Shown here: one piece after another, positions 23,201 to 41,198 of the stretch
Layout: every line of letters begins with the position of its first letter
Numbering within the stretch: position 1 is the first letter of the stretch
From: Sialis fuliginosa
Taxonomy: Eukaryota > Arthropoda > Insecta > Megaloptera > Sialidae
Length of the DNA: 64,000 nucleotides
NCBI GenBank assembly: GCA_961205875.1
Contig: OY540821.1
Span: 3,472,001-3,536,000 of the forward strand
Direction of reading: 5' to 3'
Notes under the pieces: generated by a model
Told to the model about the DNA's origin: nothing
Seen by the model: the letters and a program-made list of their open reading frames with translations, nothing else
Databases searched by the model: none
Program-made: the position numbers and the translations under genes

Positions 23201-26200
23201 TTTCAACCCCAAACGCCCACCCGAAATTTACAATTACATTGCCTACTTTGAATTCTTATCAAAACAAACTTTAAAATGTATTGTTTTTTTTAATTTATAT
23301 TTCATTCAAATCTTTGAATTTGTCCTTATTTTTCCCAAAAATATGTAATCCTTTATTTATATTTAATAAAAATAAATAAAAAATCGATACTTTGCTACCC
23401 AAAAAAATAAATTAAAACCTCATTTACACCATTCTACACATAACCATAATACATCATAATTGAAAATATAAAATATACCTACCTTAAGCTTCTTACGGCA
23501 CCCTTTTTATTTCCAAAATCAAGCACTGCATGTTAAATATAATGTATAGTATAGTTTCCTTTTGACGAAACTTGAGAATACTCGACTAATTAAAAACAAT
23601 TTATGTACTTACAGGTTTTTTTACAAAACAAACAAAAAATACAATTTAAATCACTAAGGGTCAATTTTACAAAATAACAGGGGGCACCACCTATAATTTT
23701 TTTTTAATTTTGTGACATTTGATTTGTTTGATTTTGCAATATAAATCTCTGAGGCTCTATTTTACAAAATAATAGGGGCACCGCCTATAAAATTTAAATT
23801 ACAAAAAAAAATTAACTTGTTATTGTTTTAGTTCTAATTTTTGTGTTGGTAGTGCCCTTGTTGGTGATGGTATCCAATTATTACAATGATTCCAGTGGCG
23901 TCGATTAAGATAAATATTTTTTTCGGAGGTTAACTTTTAATTTGATTAATTGAGCTAAAAAATTTTAGTCCAGTGAAATTTTCTCATAAAATTTACAATT
24001 ATTGAGATAATTGTAAAAAACCACTTCAATTTGTGATTTATCCAAATTTTAAAATTGTACGAGGATTTTAATTTTCTTGGGTTCTGAGTGAAATCTCTGT
24101 TAATCTGACTTATTAAACATTACAGTGGATATCTTCAGAACTATTTTCAAAAATCTCCGCTGTAATTTTTGACAAAACGTTAATAAAATATTTTTTACCC
24201 AAGTAGACCAAAAAATAAAAATAAAAAATTATTCATACGCCACTGAACAATGTCACAACGATGGAGTATTACTTATTTCATAAAAAAATATTTATAAAGG
24301 AATAAATCAAGAGTGAAGATAGATTTATTTATAATTTAACCGCCCCCTTTTAAAATTTCAGTTTTTAATATTTTTCTTGTATTTCTTAGGATTGCCCGAA
24401 CATTTTGCTTTAGTAACAGAGGCCATGGGTTATATCTGTCTTCGCCTTCGGAACTGCAGAAATTTACCATCTGTACAGATTTTTGGTAAGTGAAATCTCG
24501 CTATAACGAATTTATGTTTTTTTTTAATATAGAAATATATTTTACATCACCAAAATTTATTTTAAAGAATATAAACTATAAAAATAATCGAATTCGATAT
24601 TATTTTACAAAAGTATACATTTTGAGGGTCCCTGAACAGAGAAATCTCGTTATAACGACTTTATATAGTTTTCTTTAACTTAAAAATTTATTTAACATCA
24701 CTAAAAGATATTTTAATGAATTTAAACTATCAAAAAATCGAATTTGATATTATTTTATGAAATTATACATTTTGAGGGTCCTTGTACAGATTTTTGTTAA
24801 GAGAAATCTCGTTATAACGAATTCACATAGGCTTTTTAACTTATAAATATATTTAACATCACTAAAAAATATTTTAATAAATTTAAATCAAAAAAATCGA
24901 ATTTGATATTATTTTATGAAATTATACATTTTGAGGGTCCTTGTATAGATTTTTGATAAGAGAAATCTCGTTATAACGAATTCACATAGGCTTTTTACCT
25001 TTTAAATATATATTTAACGTCACCAAAAGTTGTTTTAGCGAATTTTAATTATAAAAATCGAACATGATATTATTTTAGGAAATTATACATTTTGAGAGTC
25101 CCTGTACAGATGTTTGATAAGATAAATCTCGTTATAAAAAATTTATCAAGGTTTTTTAACACAAAAATGTATTTTACGTTACGAAAAGTTATTTAAACGG
25201 TTTGTTATAAAAAATTTATCTTGATATTATTTTAAGAAACCACACATTTTGAGGGTCTCTGAATCGAGTACGACGCGTACCAGCTTAAACAGTACAATAG
25301 AGTAAATGTGTCCCATCTATTTTTGAAGAGCACACTATTTTTCTAACTATCCAAAAATCGGTCCATGATAGAAAAAAATGTTGTGAGTAAAATTTCTAGA
25401 AAAAAACATTACCAATCATTTACGTTCTATTCATTTTTCCGGTACAACAAACCGTTTTCAAAATATTCGGTTCTGAATGATGATACATATCTTATATTAA
25501 TAAAATATTTGTTAACTCTGATAGTATAATTATTAGAGGGTGTGATGAGAGGAGGGGGGGAAGTGTGATTTTAGTGTCTCAAATAAAGTATCTGGGATAT
25601 TCGAGAGTTGAAAATACTCCCCGAAAAGGTTCGTATACTTGCTGAAGCTATATTTATTGATCCATGTTGTTTTGGTTCGCAGTTCAAATCTTAACGATAT
25701 GATGGGCGAACTGTTTATCGCACTGGACATGCCTGAAGCACCGAAAGAAAGCTTTTTCAGAGGATGGTTTGGTGGCGGGTCTAGGTCGCTGGACCGTGAG
25801 GAGTTATGTAAGTAGAGATTTTTGTATTAATTGATGTGATTGTTTTTATGAATTTTTTTGTGACGTATTATTTTTTTTATTTTTTTTTAGGGGGGGAACG
25901 GGAGAGAGTGTGTTGTGAAAGGGTAGCAGAAGAGAGGGGGAATTGGCGTGATAAGTTATATAACCATCCAACCCCCATAAGCCCAAAAAAAAAATTTTTC
26001 TCTTATTTATATTTATGATGAATTGGTGTTTTTTTCTGTTTTGTGGGGTTTATTGTAGAGGGGTAGAGGGGTAGAAAAAGAGGGAGGAATTAAAATATTA
26101 AGTTATATACCCACCTAACGTCCCAAAAATATAATAATCAAATATTTTTAATTTTACGTCCTTTTTCTTTTTGCGACGAATTTGTGTTATTTTGTGGTTT

Positions 26201-29200
26201 ATACAGTAAAAGTTTATTATGAAGACGTAGGGGAAGAAGAAAGTGTTTATGTAATAAAGTATATAACTATCATCACCTCCCCCCCCCTCCAACCCCGAAA
26301 AAAAGTTTATAGTATATTCGATTATTTTTAATCTTTCTTCGATTATTTTTAATTTTTCTTCCTGTGACGATTGGTATTATTTTTTGTTTTTATAGGGTAA
26401 AAACGTGTAGTCAAGGAGTAGGAGTTGAAGAAGGTATTAATACAGCAAGCCCCTAAAAAATTTAAATAAAATATTTTATACCTATCACACATTCTAATTA
26501 TTTTAATATTATTGTAATTTTGAGGTTTTGTAGGGTAAATATTTTTTGTGGGCAAGTTTAATAATGATTTATACCCCTCCCTTCTCTCTCTCCCCCCAAT
26601 AAAAAAAGAAAATACAGTGCTTACAATTTATCATATTAATTTTTGTGAAGTTAAATTTTGTCTCGAAATAAATGGTTGTTGCTAAATTTGTTGATAAAAG
26701 AGGGGGGGGATATATATGGAGATAATGTATTCATATTGCTTCAATTTTATTACTTATTCAAATGCCCCTTCTAGCCATAGCATTTTTATCTTATGACGTT
26801 TCTACAGATAATCTTATTTATTTACTTTAAGCAAAGGTAGATATATTTTTTTATTAGATAATGCACATATTAATTAAATTATAATAATAATCTCTGACTA
26901 GCTGTCAAATCGTAATTCTATTTATATTTTACATACATGCGAATGTTTAAATGTTCATATGTGAGTTTGTTTTTAAATTAAATAATGAAAAAGTTTTTTA
27001 TATGTGTTGGAATAAAACCATCAAGAAATAAGCCAGGTATATAAATAAAATAAATGTTTTTAACTTTCTTATTTTATTATTGTTAAAGAGGCAGAGTGGA
27101 TGGGGGGGGGGGGGTAAGCAAAAGTGTATAAAAGACATGAAAAATAAAAATATTAGTTGTTCTTTTTTTTATTATCAAGAGCCCAAAAAATTGTGTAATT
27201 TTTTATTGTCTTTAAAATTGGTATAGATATAAAATTATCTGACAGACATGGCGCTTTATGACCGTCAGAAAATAATTTTAGACCTACTTGTTGAGAGATT
27301 TAAAAAAAGAAAAAAAGTTTGTCCAAAAAAGGAAGCTGTATTTCAAGATTTTTTTTTAAATCTCTTATTAATTTTTTAGGGGCCATTTTTTGAGTTGCTA
27401 GTCCCCTTCCCCTACCCTTCTTCTAATAGTCAGGACCTTTGTAACCTGATGGTAGTAAAAATATTATTTCCGATATTATAAAAAAGCGGACGCCCCGAGT
27501 GTCACCATCAAAGGGGTGACACCCGTGTAATATATTAAAAAAATAAAGCTTATTTACCTTATTTTTTGGTTATTTTAATCTTCCAAGGAGTAAAAAAAAA
27601 TTTGTTCGGTCATTGAAAGTCTATGAGGGGTTTGATAACCATCCAATTTATTTTAAAAAAATTGATATTTTTTCTGTCGTTAAAAAATCACAGGGGTATG
27701 TGCAAAAAAATAAAACCGTTTGACTTTTTGGCGGGGGGCGGGGTGGCACTCTCGATTTCCGCCCCGGGTGTCACCCCTCCTAGCGACGCCACTGAGTATC
27801 ACCAGTGTTATAATTCCGTTGGTGTTTACCAAGGTATATAAAGACAAGGTAGTCTCAAGAGCTCCTTGACCAATCAGCGTTAGCGCGGAAATTGACGTCA
27901 CCTGAGGGATCTATTCAAATGTCATAAATTTTTAATAGAATATTAATTACAAAAAATTCCTTTATTTATTCTTGTTTTCGTATTTTTTGATATTTTAACA
28001 ACACATACAATCAAAGAAGTACTAATTCGACATAGCAAAATCATAAAGAGCGGTCAGAATCACATAACGTATTGCCAACTTAAGAATAGTAAAAATGATG
28101 CTTCTCGAATAGACCAAATTATCTGTGACAGCTTTTTTATGATTTTGCAATGTCGAATTTGTACTTATTTGATTGTATGTGTTGTTAAAATATCAAAAAA
28201 TACGAAAACAAGAATAAATAAAAGAATTTTTTGTAATTAATATTCTATTAAAAGGTGACATCAATTCCCGCGCCAACGCTGATTGGTCAAGGAATTGTTG
28301 AGACTACCTTGTCTTTATCATAGACATAAAGACATGGACAGCGCCATCCGTGTAAGAAAGTGGACACAGAGACAGAGCTTGGTTTAAACAGCTTCTATCT
28401 CATAACGGCAGCGTGTAAGATAAAGATAGAATATGGTTTCACCCCGCTCCATCTCTCTTTTCTTCACGACCATTTTAAAATGCGGATCACGCTGTCCAGT
28501 ACTACATGTCTATGGTCTTTATATACCTTCAGTGTTTACTTACTGCGCGTCCGCGAACTTGATAAACTTCAAGGGAACTGGTATATGTATAAGTGCAAGG
28601 TTGCCTCAGTAGCTCGGCGCGAGAGAGGGAAATACGTCATCTGGAGTGCCCAAGCTGGTTGGTCAAAACCTGTGTATTTACTAATCTTTGTATAAGTGCT
28701 TATTAGTTAATTAATGTAGTTTAAAGTGACCAGACGTCCCGGATTTGAGTAGCATGTCCCGCATCACAAATTGTCCCGGAAATCGTCCCGGATTAGACAT
28801 TTATAATCATGATTGTGCGTTTTACAAAATTTTATTTAGATCGGGGAAAAAAATGCTGATCTTAAATTGAAAACCTTTTTTTCGTATCTTCTTTACTTAC
28901 ACAATAATTAAGAATTGAAATTTGAAGACTAAAAAAAAAAAAAGATCTTTAGATTTTATTTGAACAAGGCTGTCCAACTGTAAAATTTTATCAAAATTAA
29001 AAAAACTTGTATTATTTAAATTTTTATAAAAAATAATTTTTTTTACAAATATTTTTTTCGTATGTGTATGTGGGGGGGGAGGTGTCCCGCATCAGGGTTT
29101 TAGAATTCTGGTCACTTTAATGTAGTTATTTCTTTTGTTATGCTAATAATTGATCATTTTACGCGGTTGCAGTCGGCGAAGCTAGCGGCAAAGCTAGTAA

Positions 29201-29432
29201 GGCGGTCGCGAAGCACATTCCCGGCTCAGCGAACCTGCAGGAGATGGGCGTGAGGGTGAACTCTGCGACGGGCGAGGTGAGTCGCGCTCATCAACTGATG
29301 TTAGAGCGCGGTGATAAACTGTCGCAACTCGAAGAGCGATCTGCAAGAATGGCGAACGAGTCAGAGACGTTCGCGTCTTCGGCGCACCATCTAATGCTCA
29401 AGTACAAGGACAAGAAGTGGTACCAACTATAA
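4907..29432 (+). CDS. tomosyn: Tomosyn (syntaxin-binding protein 5), 3' part, eight coding exons
   Basis: Joined exons 4907-5264, 13927-14043, 15476-15718, 17073-17291, 19128-19236, 24390-24485, 25683-25807 and 29173-29432 encode about 509 residues that align in order with the C-terminal half of animal tomosyn/STXBP5. Tomosyn is a cytosolic and synaptic Lgl-family protein that binds syntaxin and SNAP25 through a C-terminal R-SNARE motif and restrains vesicle priming. Visible landmarks are a serine-rich linker (SFSRSRSSS), propeller strands ending in SLPSLRPLLE, the IARTFCF segment, the tail motif FGGGSRSLDREEL, and an R-SNARE ending in MLKYKDKKWYQL. The zero-layer arginine expected of an R-SNARE is present in LERGDKL. 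The N-terminal WD40 propeller exons lie upstream of the window. All splice phases agree. Introns are unusually large and packed with transposons. Confidence 0.95.
5336..6760 (+). mobile_element. Short retroelement remnant (SINE/non-LTR-like), split by a DNA transposon
   Basis: It begins near ACTAGCGACTTCGTGCGCGT and, after the inserted element at 5526-6634, resumes with TCCTTCCTCAGGATGTAGG and ends with ATCAAGATCGGTTCAGCGG and AGACAGACGGACA. This head-and-tail signature is common among degraded non-LTR/SINE-type repeats in arthropod genomes. The assignment rests on remembered pattern only; no coding is visible. Confidence 0.45.
5526..6634 (-). mobile_element. PIF/Harbinger-like element with TTA target duplication
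   Basis: The ends TGGCCGTATTCAT and ATGAATACGGCTG are inverted copies, flanked on both sides by TTA (5523-5525, 6635-6637), the 3-bp duplication typical of PIF/Harbinger elements. Sub-terminal inverted repeats carry many CCTTGAG and AAGGAAGC motifs. On the minus strand around 6090-6200 a broken frame reads GKPLTNEELQEIICPRK, like the end of the Myb/SANT-type DNA-binding proteins these elements encode. The frame is interrupted by stops. A DDE transposase is not seen, so this is a non-autonomous or decayed copy. Confidence 0.6.
6761..9041. other. Tomosyn intron, AT-rich, no gene seen
   Basis: This stretch holds A/T runs, a C-tract near 6800, and two short copies of the AATCGGTTCAGTAG motif (about 6838 and 7023). 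No exon with a convincing frame and splice sites was found on either strand, and no inverted termini were recognised. Confidence 0.5.
9042..9598. mobile_element. MITE of the ACATAGAACT family, interrupted copy
   Basis: The left end CATAGAACTTTGCAATTATA and the right end TAATTCCAGAGTTCTATG are inverted copies of each other. The body matches the copy at 9621-9896 and the one near 22126-22402. It is split by a second element at 9226-9486. The same right half is amplified into the satellite at 42.4-43.7 kb. Confidence 0.65.
9226..9486. mobile_element. hAT-like insertion inside a MITE
   Basis: The left end reads CAAGCTTGTCCAACCCGCGG and the right end GGTTGGAACC, with paired GCGGCCC segments inside each end. 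It interrupts the ACATAGAACT MITE, so it inserted later. An internal stretch (AAAAAGTCTTC, TTTTTATTTTTGC) is duplicated. No clean target duplication was found. Confidence 0.45.
9621..9896. mobile_element. MITE of the ACATAGAACT family, intact copy (about 275 bp)
   Basis: It starts ACATAGAACTTTGCAACTAT and ends TAGTTCCAGAGTTCTATGT, an inverted pair. This is the most complete copy in the window and shows the full length of the family. No reading frame is present. The superfamily is not recognised. Confidence 0.65.
9900..11460. other. Tomosyn intron, very AT-rich, no gene seen
   Basis: Long A and T runs and short chance frames only. No exon, inverted repeat or tandem array was recognised on either strand. 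Confidence 0.45.
11465..11850. mobile_element. Nearly perfect fold-back element, arms about 185 bp
   Basis: Left arm from about 11465 to 11650 and right arm from about 11660 to 11848 are almost exact inverted copies around a spacer of about 10 bp near 11655. Conserved points in both arms are GACGATGATTCTGTGAATCG and AATAGGTATATTTCTGAAT. A 16-bp string (TATACAAAATAATATA) occurs on both sides (about 11452 and 11877) but is offset from the right arm, so it is only a possible target duplication. Such a structure would fold into one long hairpin in the pre-mRNA. Confidence 0.8.
11851..13926. other. Tomosyn intron with short GC-rich MITE remnants
   Basis: Mostly AT-rich with no exon seen. Three short elements stand out: about 12727-12957 (ends CAGAGCCGTATCTAGG and AAATACAGCTCTG), 13094-13167 (ends GTGCGTATCC and GGATACGCGC, with a G-run and C-run inside), and 13228-13318 (ends AGGCGTAGC and GCTACGCCCATG around opposing G and C runs). 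These are typical ends of small hAT-type MITEs, but no convincing target duplications were found. Confidence 0.4.
13927..14043 (+). CDS. tomosyn: Tomosyn exon: SFSRSRSSS linker and start of second propeller
   Basis: The exon enters in phase 1 after GCGTAG and leaves in phase 1 at ACAG|GTTGGT, a weak donor. It reads DKLDSSFSRSRSSSMSSLEN, then TSEAIQCIAFVESYSKKT. In vertebrate tomosyn the same order is found: the basic-serine SFSRSRSSS motif followed by a propeller strand ending in RKTD. Length is 117 nt, a whole number of codons. A frame continues upstream of the acceptor, but it does not match the family. Confidence 0.9.
14177..14781 (+). mobile_element. Tc1/mariner-type element with transposase remnant
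   Basis: The inverted ends CAGTACAGGCCAAAAGTTTG and its complement are flanked by TA on both sides (14175-14176, 14782-14783), the Tc1/mariner target. The arms match over about 200 bp each. Between them, about 14452-14510 still reads GGGSVMVWGCF, the catalytic-domain motif shared by Tc1-type transposases, followed by broken frames. It is therefore an internally deleted, inactive copy, lying in the tomosyn intron just after the exon ending at 14043. Confidence 0.85.
14784..15475. other. Tomosyn intron, AT-rich, nothing recognised
   Basis: Runs of A and T, ending in the acceptor TTTACTTCCAG used by the exon at 15476. No repeat structure or reading frame of interest was found. Confidence 0.5.
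15476..15718 (+). CDS. tomosyn: Tomosyn exon: second beta-propeller strands
   Basis: Phase 1 in and phase 1 out, 81 codons, with acceptor TTCCAG and donor GTAAGT. It encodes LWVGTSLGSVLTVLL, then FRLKGSILTMSFLDCNG and NSYEVWRDE, which match vertebrate segments of the type LWVGTTLGTVLV and RLKGAILRMAFLD. Spacing between these motifs agrees with the family. Opposite-strand frames across this exon are shadows. Confidence 0.95.
15905..16535 (+). mobile_element. Non-autonomous element with tyrosine-recombinase-like relic (copy 1)
   Basis: The element is bounded by TTTTTTCTACAACC at the left and GGTTGTAGAAAAAA at the right. A perfect 15-16 bp hairpin (GCCGTGCGTAAA against TTTACGCACGGC, 16416-16453) lies near the right end. 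From about 16120 the + strand reads PPEISEAANSVTLNLLSTKS, then RYENYT, a stop, and YHEFCQEKN. That pattern resembles the N-terminal SAM-like domain of the tyrosine-recombinase (Crypton-type) proteins found in many arthropod genomes. The match is from memory and moderate. The second copy (58247-58990, inverted) keeps the same internal stop. Confidence 0.45.
16587..16958. mobile_element. hAT-like MITE rich in GAACCG repeats
   Basis: The ends CAGGGCTTCGAACCGG and GGTTCGAAGTCCTG are inverted copies. The flanks GTCGGAAC and GCTGGAAC (8 bp) differ at two positions and could be a decayed target duplication. The body is made of short GAACCGAAAACCG-type units. No coding is present. Confidence 0.6.
17073..17291 (+). 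CDS. tomosyn: Tomosyn exon: propeller strands with alternative in-frame donor
   Basis: The acceptor ATGTGACAG gives phase 1 entry. The exon encodes a polar linker (TPTKTNNRMSPTLNESRLNS) and then DRQFVVIASEKQARVVALPS and FVVKSEVISLR, parallel to QYAVICSEKQAKVISLP and the following strand in vertebrates. The donor at 17292 (AGAG|GTATGC) gives the family-length join to the exon at 19128. A second donor 15 nt downstream (17307, AGAG|GTAATT) also keeps the frame and would add five residues (GMHKR). Confidence 0.92.
17500..18235. repeat. Three tandem copies of a 284-289 bp unit
   Basis: CTTCAGTCA(C/T)GATATATTTG occurs at 17622, 17911 and 18195, and the stretches between align along their whole length (ATAGACTGAAAA, GATAGGT, TTCTAAACTATCTATTC). 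The first copy differs by an extra CTAACCTAAC, so it reads TAACCTAACCTAACCC where the others have TAACCC. No coding is present. Confidence 0.8.
18632..18782 (+). other. Candidate cassette or poison exon in a tomosyn intron
   Basis: A GC-richer block of 151 nt is bounded by TTCATAG and AAAG|GTAGGG. Read in phase 0 it gives an open frame containing CGVRGNLEKIRTCSTDWRLP and ending in phase 1, which would join the exon at 19128. The preceding tomosyn exon, however, ends in phase 1; spliced to it the block hits a stop after 13 codons. It is therefore either a poison exon, an exon used with an unseen upstream phase-0 partner, or a chance open stretch. Its protein matches no family I recognise and is absent from the aligned vertebrate protein. 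Confidence 0.35.
19128..19236 (+). CDS. tomosyn: Tomosyn exon: last propeller strands
   Basis: The acceptor TTTTTACAG and donor CTCAG|GTAAGT are strong. Phase 1 in, phase 2 out. It encodes DSVCLLCYVSTGKLLAY, SLPSLRPLLE and FLPLADLR, matching the vertebrate order SLPSLRPLLD followed by LPLTDMR. The first codon (D) is split with the exon ending at 17291. Confidence 0.95.
19237..24389. other. Large tomosyn intron with C-tracts and one MITE
   Basis: No exon was found. Contents include homopolymer C tracts (about 21200, 21512, 21668 and a run near 22650), a (TTAA)n-like stretch near 20865, one ACATAGAACT MITE (22126-22402), and a local duplication at about 23655-23790 where TTTTACAAAATAA and GGGGCACC(A/G)CCTATAA occur twice. 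Short open frames, such as that at 20899-21165, show no recognisable protein. Confidence 0.45.
22126..22402. mobile_element. Degraded ACATAGAACT-family MITE (third copy)
   Basis: The left end CGGTACTCTGAAACTATAAA is degenerate, and the right end ATTCCAGAGTTCTATGT is intact. The body shares AATACGTAAAACTAGA and AACCACTGA with the 9.6 kb copy. Length is about 277 bp, as for the intact copy. Confidence 0.55.
24390..24485 (+). CDS. tomosyn: Tomosyn exon: IARTFCF segment
   Basis: The acceptor TTTCTTAG and donor TTTG|GTAAGT give phase 2 in and phase 2 out. It reads IARTFCFSNRGHGLYLSSPS and then ELQKFTICTDF, the counterpart of vertebrate IARTFCFTNNGQALYL followed by SPTEIQ. Length matches the family. 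Its last 15 bases and the donor are the start of the tandem array that follows. Confidence 0.95.
24470..25275. repeat. Minisatellite of about 160 bp units starting at a splice donor
   Basis: GAAATCTCG(C/T)TATAA-type starts recur at 24492, 24641, 24803, 24962 and, as a variant, 25123. Units share CATTTTGAGGGTCC and GATATTATTTTA. Three later units begin GTACAGATTTTTGTTAAG, GTATAGATTTTTGATAAG and GTACAGATGTTTGATAAG, matching the exon end and donor GTACAGATTTTTG|GTAAG. Only the first copy keeps a GT. Confidence 0.85.
25683..25807 (+). CDS. tomosyn: Tomosyn exon: tail segment GELF...LDREEL
   Basis: Phase 2 in, phase 1 out, with acceptor GGTTCGCAG and donor TTAT|GTAAGT. It encodes NLNDMMGELFIALDMPEAP and FFRGWFGGGSRSLDREEL. 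The vertebrate tail has QEMLGELFTPVETPEAP followed by FFKGLFGGGAQSLDREEL, so this is the conserved tail between propeller and SNARE motif that regulates SNARE binding in vertebrate tomosyn. Confidence 0.95.
25870..27470. repeat. Degenerate tandem repeat, units of about 170 bp
   Basis: Units start with a purine-rich box such as GGGGTAGAGGGGTAG (about 25888, 26055, 26228, 26400), followed by AAGTTATATAACCAxC, a C-run, an A-run and TTGTGTTATTTT-like T-rich text. Divergence between units is high. Chance frames are frequent but none is coding. Confidence 0.45.
27480..27795. mobile_element. Partial element ending in the CAGTGGCGTCGC terminus
   Basis: The right end reads CTAGCGACGCCACTG, preceded by GGGTGTCACCCCTC; the same end sequence occurs within the element at 59466-60504 (about 60413-60448). 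A matching left terminus is not clear, although GGGGTGACACCC near 27514 may be an internal inverted copy. It is treated as a fragment of a hAT-type MITE. Confidence 0.4.
27830..28531. mobile_element. Fold-back MITE with GTGTTTAC target duplication
   Basis: The ends CAAGGTATATAAAGAC and GTCTTTATATACCTTCA are inverted copies flanked by GTGTTTAC at 27822-27829 and 28532-28539. The arms run about 27838-28049 against 28131-28318 and share TTGACCAATCAGCGTTAGCG (left, with differences) and GTATGTGTTGTTAAAATATC (right). The right arm is interrupted by the 196-bp insertion at 28319-28514; removing that insertion restores the terminal match. The element lies in the last tomosyn intron. Confidence 0.8.
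28319..28514. mobile_element. Nested hAT-like MITE, TSD GTCTTTAT
   Basis: The inverted ends CATAGACATAAAGACATGGA and CATGTCTATG are flanked by identical 8-bp GTCTTTAT (28311-28318, 28515-28522). The first bases match the ends of the elements at 35976-37171 and 46701-47493, suggesting one family. The open frame across it has no recognisable product. Confidence 0.8.
28722..29119. mobile_element. hAT-like MITE, ends TAAAGTGACCAG, TSD ATGTAGTT
   Basis: The inverted ends TAAAGTGACCAG and CTGGTCACTTTA are flanked by ATGTAGTT on both sides (28714-28721, 29120-29127). The body contains repeated GTCCCG motifs. The element ends only about 53 bp before the acceptor of the last tomosyn exon, close to the branch-point region. 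Confidence 0.85.
29173..29432 (+). CDS. tomosyn: Tomosyn last coding exon: R-SNARE motif
   Basis: The acceptor GGTTGCAG gives phase 1 entry, and the exon runs 86 codons to TAA at 29430-29432. It starts GEASGKASKAVAKHIPG, the counterpart of vertebrate GESSSGKASRSLAQHIPG, and continues into the coiled-coil R-SNARE: heptads through LMLERGDKLSQLEERSARM with the zero-layer arginine in LERGD, ending MLKYKDKKWYQL, nearly identical to the vertebrate end. An ATG inside the exon is an internal methionine, not a start. The domain forms a complex with syntaxin and SNAP25 that competes with synaptobrevin. Confidence 0.97.
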
Positions 29433-39337: not shown

Positions 39338-39482
39338 GTATAATCGTGCAGTGAACATAACATTAAAACATATTTTTAAACAATACCATGTGAATGCAAA
39401 CATAAACCAAATGTGTAGAATCGTGTGCATATATCTACAAATTAAATGACAAAGTGCGTGGTGTACATAACCTCAAAAAGTG

Positions 39483-41198
39483 ATGAATCAACCATCAAAT
39501 AACAATGTAACTTGCGACAACAACATGCCCGAAGTAACCGAACCAATTGGGGGTTTAAACCTCCGCGAGTCCCATATAAAGGAGAAGAAACTGTCCACAG
39601 GGTCCTTGGGTGGAAGCAGCGACGGAAACAAACCAAAAATCGTGACTGTCAAGCATCCTGAGTCCAACAAACCAAAACCTACCGTCAAAAAGAACAAGCC
39701 AATACAAGCGGATTTAGACGTCACAAAAGAATTTATCCGGTGTCGTGAAGACGGTATAACCAGACTGGACTTGAGTAAATCGAATATAACAAACCTACCA
39801 CCGACTTTACGTGATTTAGTGCACCTATCTGAACTTTATCTATACGGGAATAAGTTAGTGTCTCTTCCGGTTGAAATCGGATGTTTAACTAATTTAAAAA
39901 CGCTAGCGTTGAGTGAAAACTCACTGACGAGTCTCCCTGATTCCCTTGCGAACCTCAAATCTCTCAGGGTACTTGATTTAAGGCACAACAAACTCAACGA
40001 AATACCTGACGTTGTCTACAGACTCACATCTTTAACTACTTTATTCCTACGTTTCAATCGCATCCGTATTGTCGGTGACGAAATCAAACACCTGACAAAT
40101 CTAACAATGCTGAGTCTCCGTGAGAACAAAATACGTGAACTACCGGCCGGTATAGGGAAGTTAGTGAATCTAATTACATTCGATGTGTCGCATAATCATT
40201 TAGAACATCTCCCAGAAGAAATAGGCCAGTGCGTGAATTTATCTACGCTCGATTTACCGCATAATGAATTGCTTGATATACCAGACTCGATAGGAAATCT
40301 AGAGGTTCTTACAAGGCTTGGGTTGAGGTATAACCGATTAACAGCGATACCAGCAAGTCTGAGTAATTGCAAACATATGGAAGAGTTTAATGTTGAAGGG
40401 AATGCGATCTCACAGCTTCCCGAAGGACTCCTTGCAAGTCTTTCTGAACTAACGAGTATCACGTTGAGCCGGAATAGTTTTGCTTCGTATCCGTCAGGAG
40501 GACCTGCCCAGTTTACTAACGTGTATACTATTAATTTAGAACACAATCAGATTGATAAAATTCCTTATGGGATTTTTTCACGTGCAAAAAATTTAACAAA
40601 ATTAAACATGAAAGAAAATCTTCTAACTGCCCTTCCGTTGGATATAGGGACCTGGGTTAATATGGTCGAGTTAAATCTAGGAACGAATCAACTGATGAAG
40701 ATCCCTGAAGATATTCAATGTTTGCAAAGTCTTGAAGTTTTGATTCTATCGAATAACCTCTTGAAGAAAGTTCCGGCGAATATTGGAAATCTACGGAAAC
40801 TCAGGGTGTTGGATTTGGAAGAGAATAAACTTGAATCCCTCCCAAATGAGATTAGTTTCTTGCGAGAGCTACAAAAGTTAATAGTTCAGTCGAATCAACT
40901 GACGACTTTACCTAGAGCGATTGGACATCTAACGAATTTGATCTATCTGTCAGTAGGAGAGAATAATCTTGGGTATCTCCCAGAGGAAATTGGAACCTTG
41001 GAGAATCTTGAGTCGTTGTATATCAACGATAATCCCCAGTTGAGTAATTTGCCATTTGAATTGGCGCTGTGCGCGAAGCTCCAGATTATGAGTATTGAAA
41101 ACTGCCCGTTGTCGCAGATTCCGGCGGAAATTGTCGCAGGGGGGCCCTCGTTGGTGATACAGTACCTCAAGATGCAGGGGCCGTATAGGGCTATGTGA
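39483..41198 (+). CDS. Shoc2: SHOC2 / Sur-8 leucine-rich repeat scaffold, intronless
   Basis: The 571-codon frame starts at ATG 39483; an upstream in-frame GTG is not a eukaryotic start. After a lysine/asparagine-rich, presumably disordered N-terminus of about 85 residues, [12 protein letters not shown] opens a solenoid of about 20 leucine-rich repeats of 22-24 residues each. Signature stretches shared with animal SHOC2 include [69 protein letters not shown] and LPFELALC, and the C-terminus MQGPYRAM lacks only the last residue seen in vertebrates. SHOC2 binds MRAS-GTP and PP1 catalytic subunit to dephosphorylate RAF at the plasma membrane and so activates MAPK signalling. Length is close to the 582 residues of the human protein. 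The absence of introns contrasts with its neighbours. Confidence 0.97.

Follow-up and report, generated by a model that had tools for sequence, protein, structure and literature searches.

A tandem array in a tomosyn intron that very probably arose by duplication of an exon end into a dispersed repeat

Tandem duplications that copy splice signals form a known class of genomic change, and two described genes offer points of comparison for the locus presented here. The minisatellite of the human IFI6 gene, the subject of a 1995 paper, reportedly supplies several splice donors. Two downstream repeat units of IFI6 are reported to serve as splice donor sites (PMC4526556). In a potato gene, a tandem duplication across an intron-exon boundary copied splicing signals, and a new intron formed (PMC4974935). 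None of the listed literature titles on tomosyn, tandem repeats, and splice donors describes the array reported here, and its motif letters had no match in the literature searched, although the array may have appeared in print.

The window, the whole stretch of 64,000 nucleotides of Sialis fuliginosa DNA that was analysed, corresponds to C13:3472001-3536000 of a 392-Mb genome in 20 contigs. Its features, in window positions, are as follows.

24390..24485, + strand: tomosyn coding exon of 96 bp, with AG upstream and GTAAGT downstream, supported by its translation
24472..24632, + strand: unit 1, comprising the exon end, the real donor (24486), and the first intron copy of the repeat body
24633..24782, + strand: unit 2, which lacks 12 bp where the exon end would be
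24783..24941, + strand: unit 3, TGTACAGATTTTTG then TTAAG; donor +1 is T, with a shifted GT at 24796
24942..25102, + strand: unit 4, TGTATAGATTTTTG then ATAAG; donor +1 is A
25103..25262, + strand: unit 5, TGTACAGATGTTTG then ATAAG; donor +1 is A
25210..25275, + strand: 3' stretch of the dispersed repeat including the usual continuation GAGGGTCTCTGAATCGAGTACGAC, which follows no unit but the last; limits approximate
25683..25807, + strand: next tomosyn exon, (C)SNLNDMMGELFIALDMPEAPKESFFRGWFGGGSRSLDREEL..., with limits given by AG and GTAAGT in the sequence
29154..29429, + strand: C-terminal tomosyn exon, an open frame with an R-SNARE motif; exact exon start not set

The gene was assigned to tomosyn via the SNARE exon, whose frame matches M-tomosyn (PDB 1urq, E 8.2e-10) and the Pfam Synaptobrevin family (E 2.6e-7). 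The exon pair on either side of the array (24390-24485 and 25683-25807) matched no family in Pfam or NCBIfam, and two other presumed tomosyn exons matched none in Pfam. A scan of bacterial and archaeal genome contigs with the tomosyn exon peptides gave 134 pattern matches and no relatives by tblastn, and motif scans over viral contigs gave no matches. Read in frame from 24391, the upstream exon translates as IARTFCFSNRGHGLYLSSPSELQKFTICTDF plus a split last codon, which becomes Cys once joined to the exon from 25683; its terminal bases are TGTACAGATTTTTG, and the donor GTAAGT begins at 24486. Downstream of tomosyn, on the + strand at 39471-41198, lies an uninterrupted 575-aa frame that matches human SHOC-2 (E 3.5e-226, residues 54-575) and is apparently an intronless SHOC2/Sur-8 coding region.

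The array consists of five units of 150-161 bp and ends at about 25262, and its first unit begins inside the last 14 coding bases of the upstream exon. Tandem Repeats Finder reports it as 3.9 copies of period 161 at 24638-25257 and also with period 320 at 24471-25174. The exon end and donor region lie in tandem in units 1, 3, 4, and 5 (the copies read TGTACAGATTTTTGTTAAG at 24783, TGTATAGATTTTTGATAAG at 24942, and TGTACAGATGTTTGATAAG at 25103), whereas unit 2 (24633), which reads CCCTGAACAG-AGAAATCTCG, is missing 12 bp there. The sequences of the three copies and the coordinates given in the preliminary description are correct, and three of the four non-exonic units carry the exon end. In the whole genome, TGTACAGATTTTTGNTAAG occurs with at most one mismatch in eight places (control 1), four of them in the array; by eye, the other four places (L031-L034) have no flanking unit sequence.

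A dispersed repeat makes up the 3' part of every unit in diverged form, and its core (by eye, ...AATTACACGTTTTGAGGGTCCCTGAATCACGTACGACCATTATCTCAATGACGTC...) is present in all five. A core query picked without regard to its continuation (GAAATTACACATTTTGAGGGTCCCTG, up to GAGGGTCCCTG; at most three mismatches) has 638 places genome-wide and none in the control. Among the 30 best of these 638 copies, each with one match, the core continues as A(A/T)T(C/T)A or AATCGA in 29 and as GAGCCA in one; it never continues into the TACAG of the exon end (0/30). When the usual continuation is included (AATCACGTACGAC), the core has 424 places genome-wide (control 0), among which the array's own 3' end, with three mismatches, may be counted. 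In contrast, the core followed by the exon end (TTTTGAGGGTCCCTGTACAGATTTTTG, at most three mismatches) occurs in only three places in the genome, all in the array (control 0). Likeness to unit 1 gave the same picture: the core was matched in 19 of 20 loci fetched in this way, with TACAG following in none of the 19, and in a genome search with unit 1 that scored 25 candidates, 24 non-array places matched the body of the unit but in no case the first 43 bases of the unit. The loci L052-L081 are uninformative on the continuation because they were chosen by a pattern that contains it; a count of 28 and the larger part of a count of 47 stem from these loci and are not independent evidence. Each of them has one signature.

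The same core is found in two settings: mostly as GAGGGTCCCTGAACC inside an element CAGTGGCGTAG (L009-L028), and as GAGGGTCCCTGAATCACGTACGACCATTATCTCAATGACGTC in a larger family that includes L052-L081. Just upstream of the tomosyn exon, a segment at 23893-24245 is bounded by CAGTGGCGT and ACGCCACTG, and its ends resemble those of a dispersed element (CAGTGGCGTAGATAG...CTATCTACGCCACTG) in which many of the repeat cores lie. Within this segment a repeat search detected a single 12-base inverted pair, and no clear target-site duplication was seen by eye.

The repeat family also forms a tandem array of its own, which rules out the idea that it is never tandem outside tomosyn. This array (L112:487-970, from C6:1423186 on) has a period of 112 and five core copies, and the core search on C6 found four copies spaced 112-225 bp apart. 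Its joints lie inside the family and the exon end is absent from it, so the family can become tandem via other joints; the only special point of the tomosyn array is that its joint fell inside an exon. A second, 100-bp array of two identical copies lies nearby at L112:1058-1258. Other long-period arrays occur near dispersed copies of the repeat, at L052:1873-2583 (216 bp), L069:2267-3024 (177 bp), L071:1870-2122 (135 bp), and L074:1101-1352 (141 bp); the core is absent from all four, which are the long-period arrays that Tandem Repeats Finder reported in L052-L081.

Within the tomosyn array, the cores of units 2, 3, and 4 run into a copy of the exon end, the core of unit 1 runs into the shortened form of unit 2, and only the core of unit 5 runs into GAATCGAGTACGAC. 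When the array is compared by BLAST with 30 family loci, coverage is limited to the 3' 50-80 bp of each unit; the matches break off close to each inner joint, a few bases from it at most, and extend farther only beyond unit 5, as far as about 25275. A stray piece of the family was matched by BLAST at 25340-25400. The duplication joints (marked ^) are CTG^TACAG in the exon and CCCTG^AATC in the repeat, and they have three bases, CTG, in common; of the two joints of the direct repeat, one is thus exonic and the other intronic. A joint of three bases is short, and an alternative placement is possible. Because the joint is, within this genome, exclusive to the array, and because the usual family continuation appears in the array only after the last unit, a repeat copy in the intron and an inward duplication of the exon end can be deduced. 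The joints and the family continuation support the proposal in the preliminary description that the array arose by duplications that included the exon boundary, and they indicate that copying ran from exon to intron.

A plausible course of events can be proposed on this basis. Initially, a copy of the dispersed repeat would have been located about 30-90 bp into the intron of tomosyn. A tandem duplication of about 160 bp, starting 14 bases inside the exon, would then have fused the repeat's CCCTG to the exon's CTG^TACAG via the three common bases. Growth to five units would have come later, by unequal exchange or slippage, after which the exon-end and donor copies in the intron would have changed (A or T at +1 in three, a 12-bp gap in the fourth) while the true exon end and donor presumably remained under ordinary coding and splicing constraint. 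Pairwise unit identities of 74-91% suggest that the array is old. Neighbours are most alike in the pairs U2-U3 (90.5%) and U3-U4 (86.8%), whereas U4 and U5, although adjacent, are only 77% alike, which counts against simple stepwise growth. A tandem duplication from the exon into an intronic repeat, followed by growth of the array and change in the copies, very probably explains the array, which itself most likely does nothing.

The likeness between exon and array units might in principle be fortuitous, since the window is 71% A+T. Within the 64-kb window, the 19-mer at the exon end has four matches with at most three mismatches (the exon and three copies, the latter in register within the array), compared with a mean of 0.09 and a largest count of 1 in 100 shuffles; chance likeness is accordingly refuted. 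Copying could also have run in reverse, with a pre-existing repeat array supplying the exon end and donor to the gene. Taken by itself, the 161-bp unit does look like a repeat of which the 18 bases are a part, and the family is tandem in at least one other place. Against this, the exon-end sequence is absent beside the family elsewhere, the array in L112 has other joints, and the usual continuation of the family is located at the 3' end of the tomosyn array. In addition, vertebrate tomosyn presumably aligns gap-free across the junction of the upstream exon and the next exon. Reverse copying is therefore very improbable. A terminal repeat of a DNA transposon was considered as a source of the unit as well, since AAATCTCGTTATAACGA resembles a pogo/Tigger-type terminal repeat. 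This 21-mer has 15 places with at most two mismatches (control 2), four in the array and 11 elsewhere; the idea fails to explain the unit because none of the 11 outside places precedes a unit body (by eye, over 230 bp). Loci L045, L046, and L048 hold CTTGTTATAACGAATT sequences, followed in L045 and L046 by TTGTTATATCGAGGTTGCACTGTAT, which resemble relics of a pogo/Tigger-type transposon.

The fate of the copied donors raises a separate question, as the preliminary description held that the donor GT was lost in every later unit and suggested selection against decoy donors. The loss is real in register, since at the sequence level none of units 2-5 has a GT at the donor position; in unit 3, however, a GT occurs one base away from that position (TTT|GTTAAG, 24796), and on an approximate weight matrix its score is -9.2, compared with 4.0 for the real donor. 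Of the remaining GT sites in the intron, the six that score best all fall outside the five units. Selection would have acted if copies with an intact GT harmed splicing and only alleles with dead copies survived. Such selection is conceivable because translation continued beyond the true donor yields W and then immediately a stop, and the lack of any in-register GT downstream is consistent with it. Against it, unit 1 differs from all of units 3-5 at 17 of 156 ungapped columns, and at 15 of 136 (0.11) outside the first 20 columns, so that the expected probability of such a change at +1 is about 0.11, or about 0.21 for either of two bases. The change at +1 is unremarkable because the same type of change is found at 0.11 of other columns. 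Nor are the losses independent, because A at +1 is common to U4 and U5 (U3 has T and U2 a gap), and U3-U5 all retain the T of the GT. A single loss in a common ancestor, together with one further change and a deletion, would be enough to account for all of the dead donors. Selection that purged decoys is thus unlikely, and the suggestion made earlier is not supported by these changes. Still less likely is a donor tract that turns over, in which selection purges new live donors and a dead +1 was fixed before the array grew; the earlier picture of a tract able to create donor copies is not supported by units that are 74-91% identical and include no in-register GT downstream. One observation also counts against plain decay: only two of the 14 exon-derived columns are variable, against a mean of 5.2 per 14-column window, although 16 of 143 windows are as quiet. 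Since plain decay would not predict such quiet columns, either conversion with the exon or chance has to be considered.

When set beside the described systems, the tomosyn array is a clear example of the known class in which splice signals are copied by tandem duplication. Like the IFI6 minisatellite, it has tandem units that carry copies of a splice donor; unlike IFI6, its downstream units have no in-register donor GT. The earlier characterization of the tract as unusual was fair, although IFI6 provides a precedent. As in the potato gene, the duplication crosses an exon boundary and has copied splicing signals, but here all of the copies sit inside a single intron, with no sign of a new intron or exon. 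With the dispersed family of its own genome the array has in common the 3' part of each unit, the family continuation being found only at the array's 3' end; family copies elsewhere lack the exon end and are either single (L052-L081) or tandem with other joints (L112). In this gene the dispersed repeat acts as a landmark from which the direction of a tandem duplication over an exon boundary can be read, and copies of a splice donor were left behind in the intron. Judged from sequence alone, these extra donors are dead and the wider meaning is small: the array records a tidy but unexceptional event in genome history, for which precedents are known.
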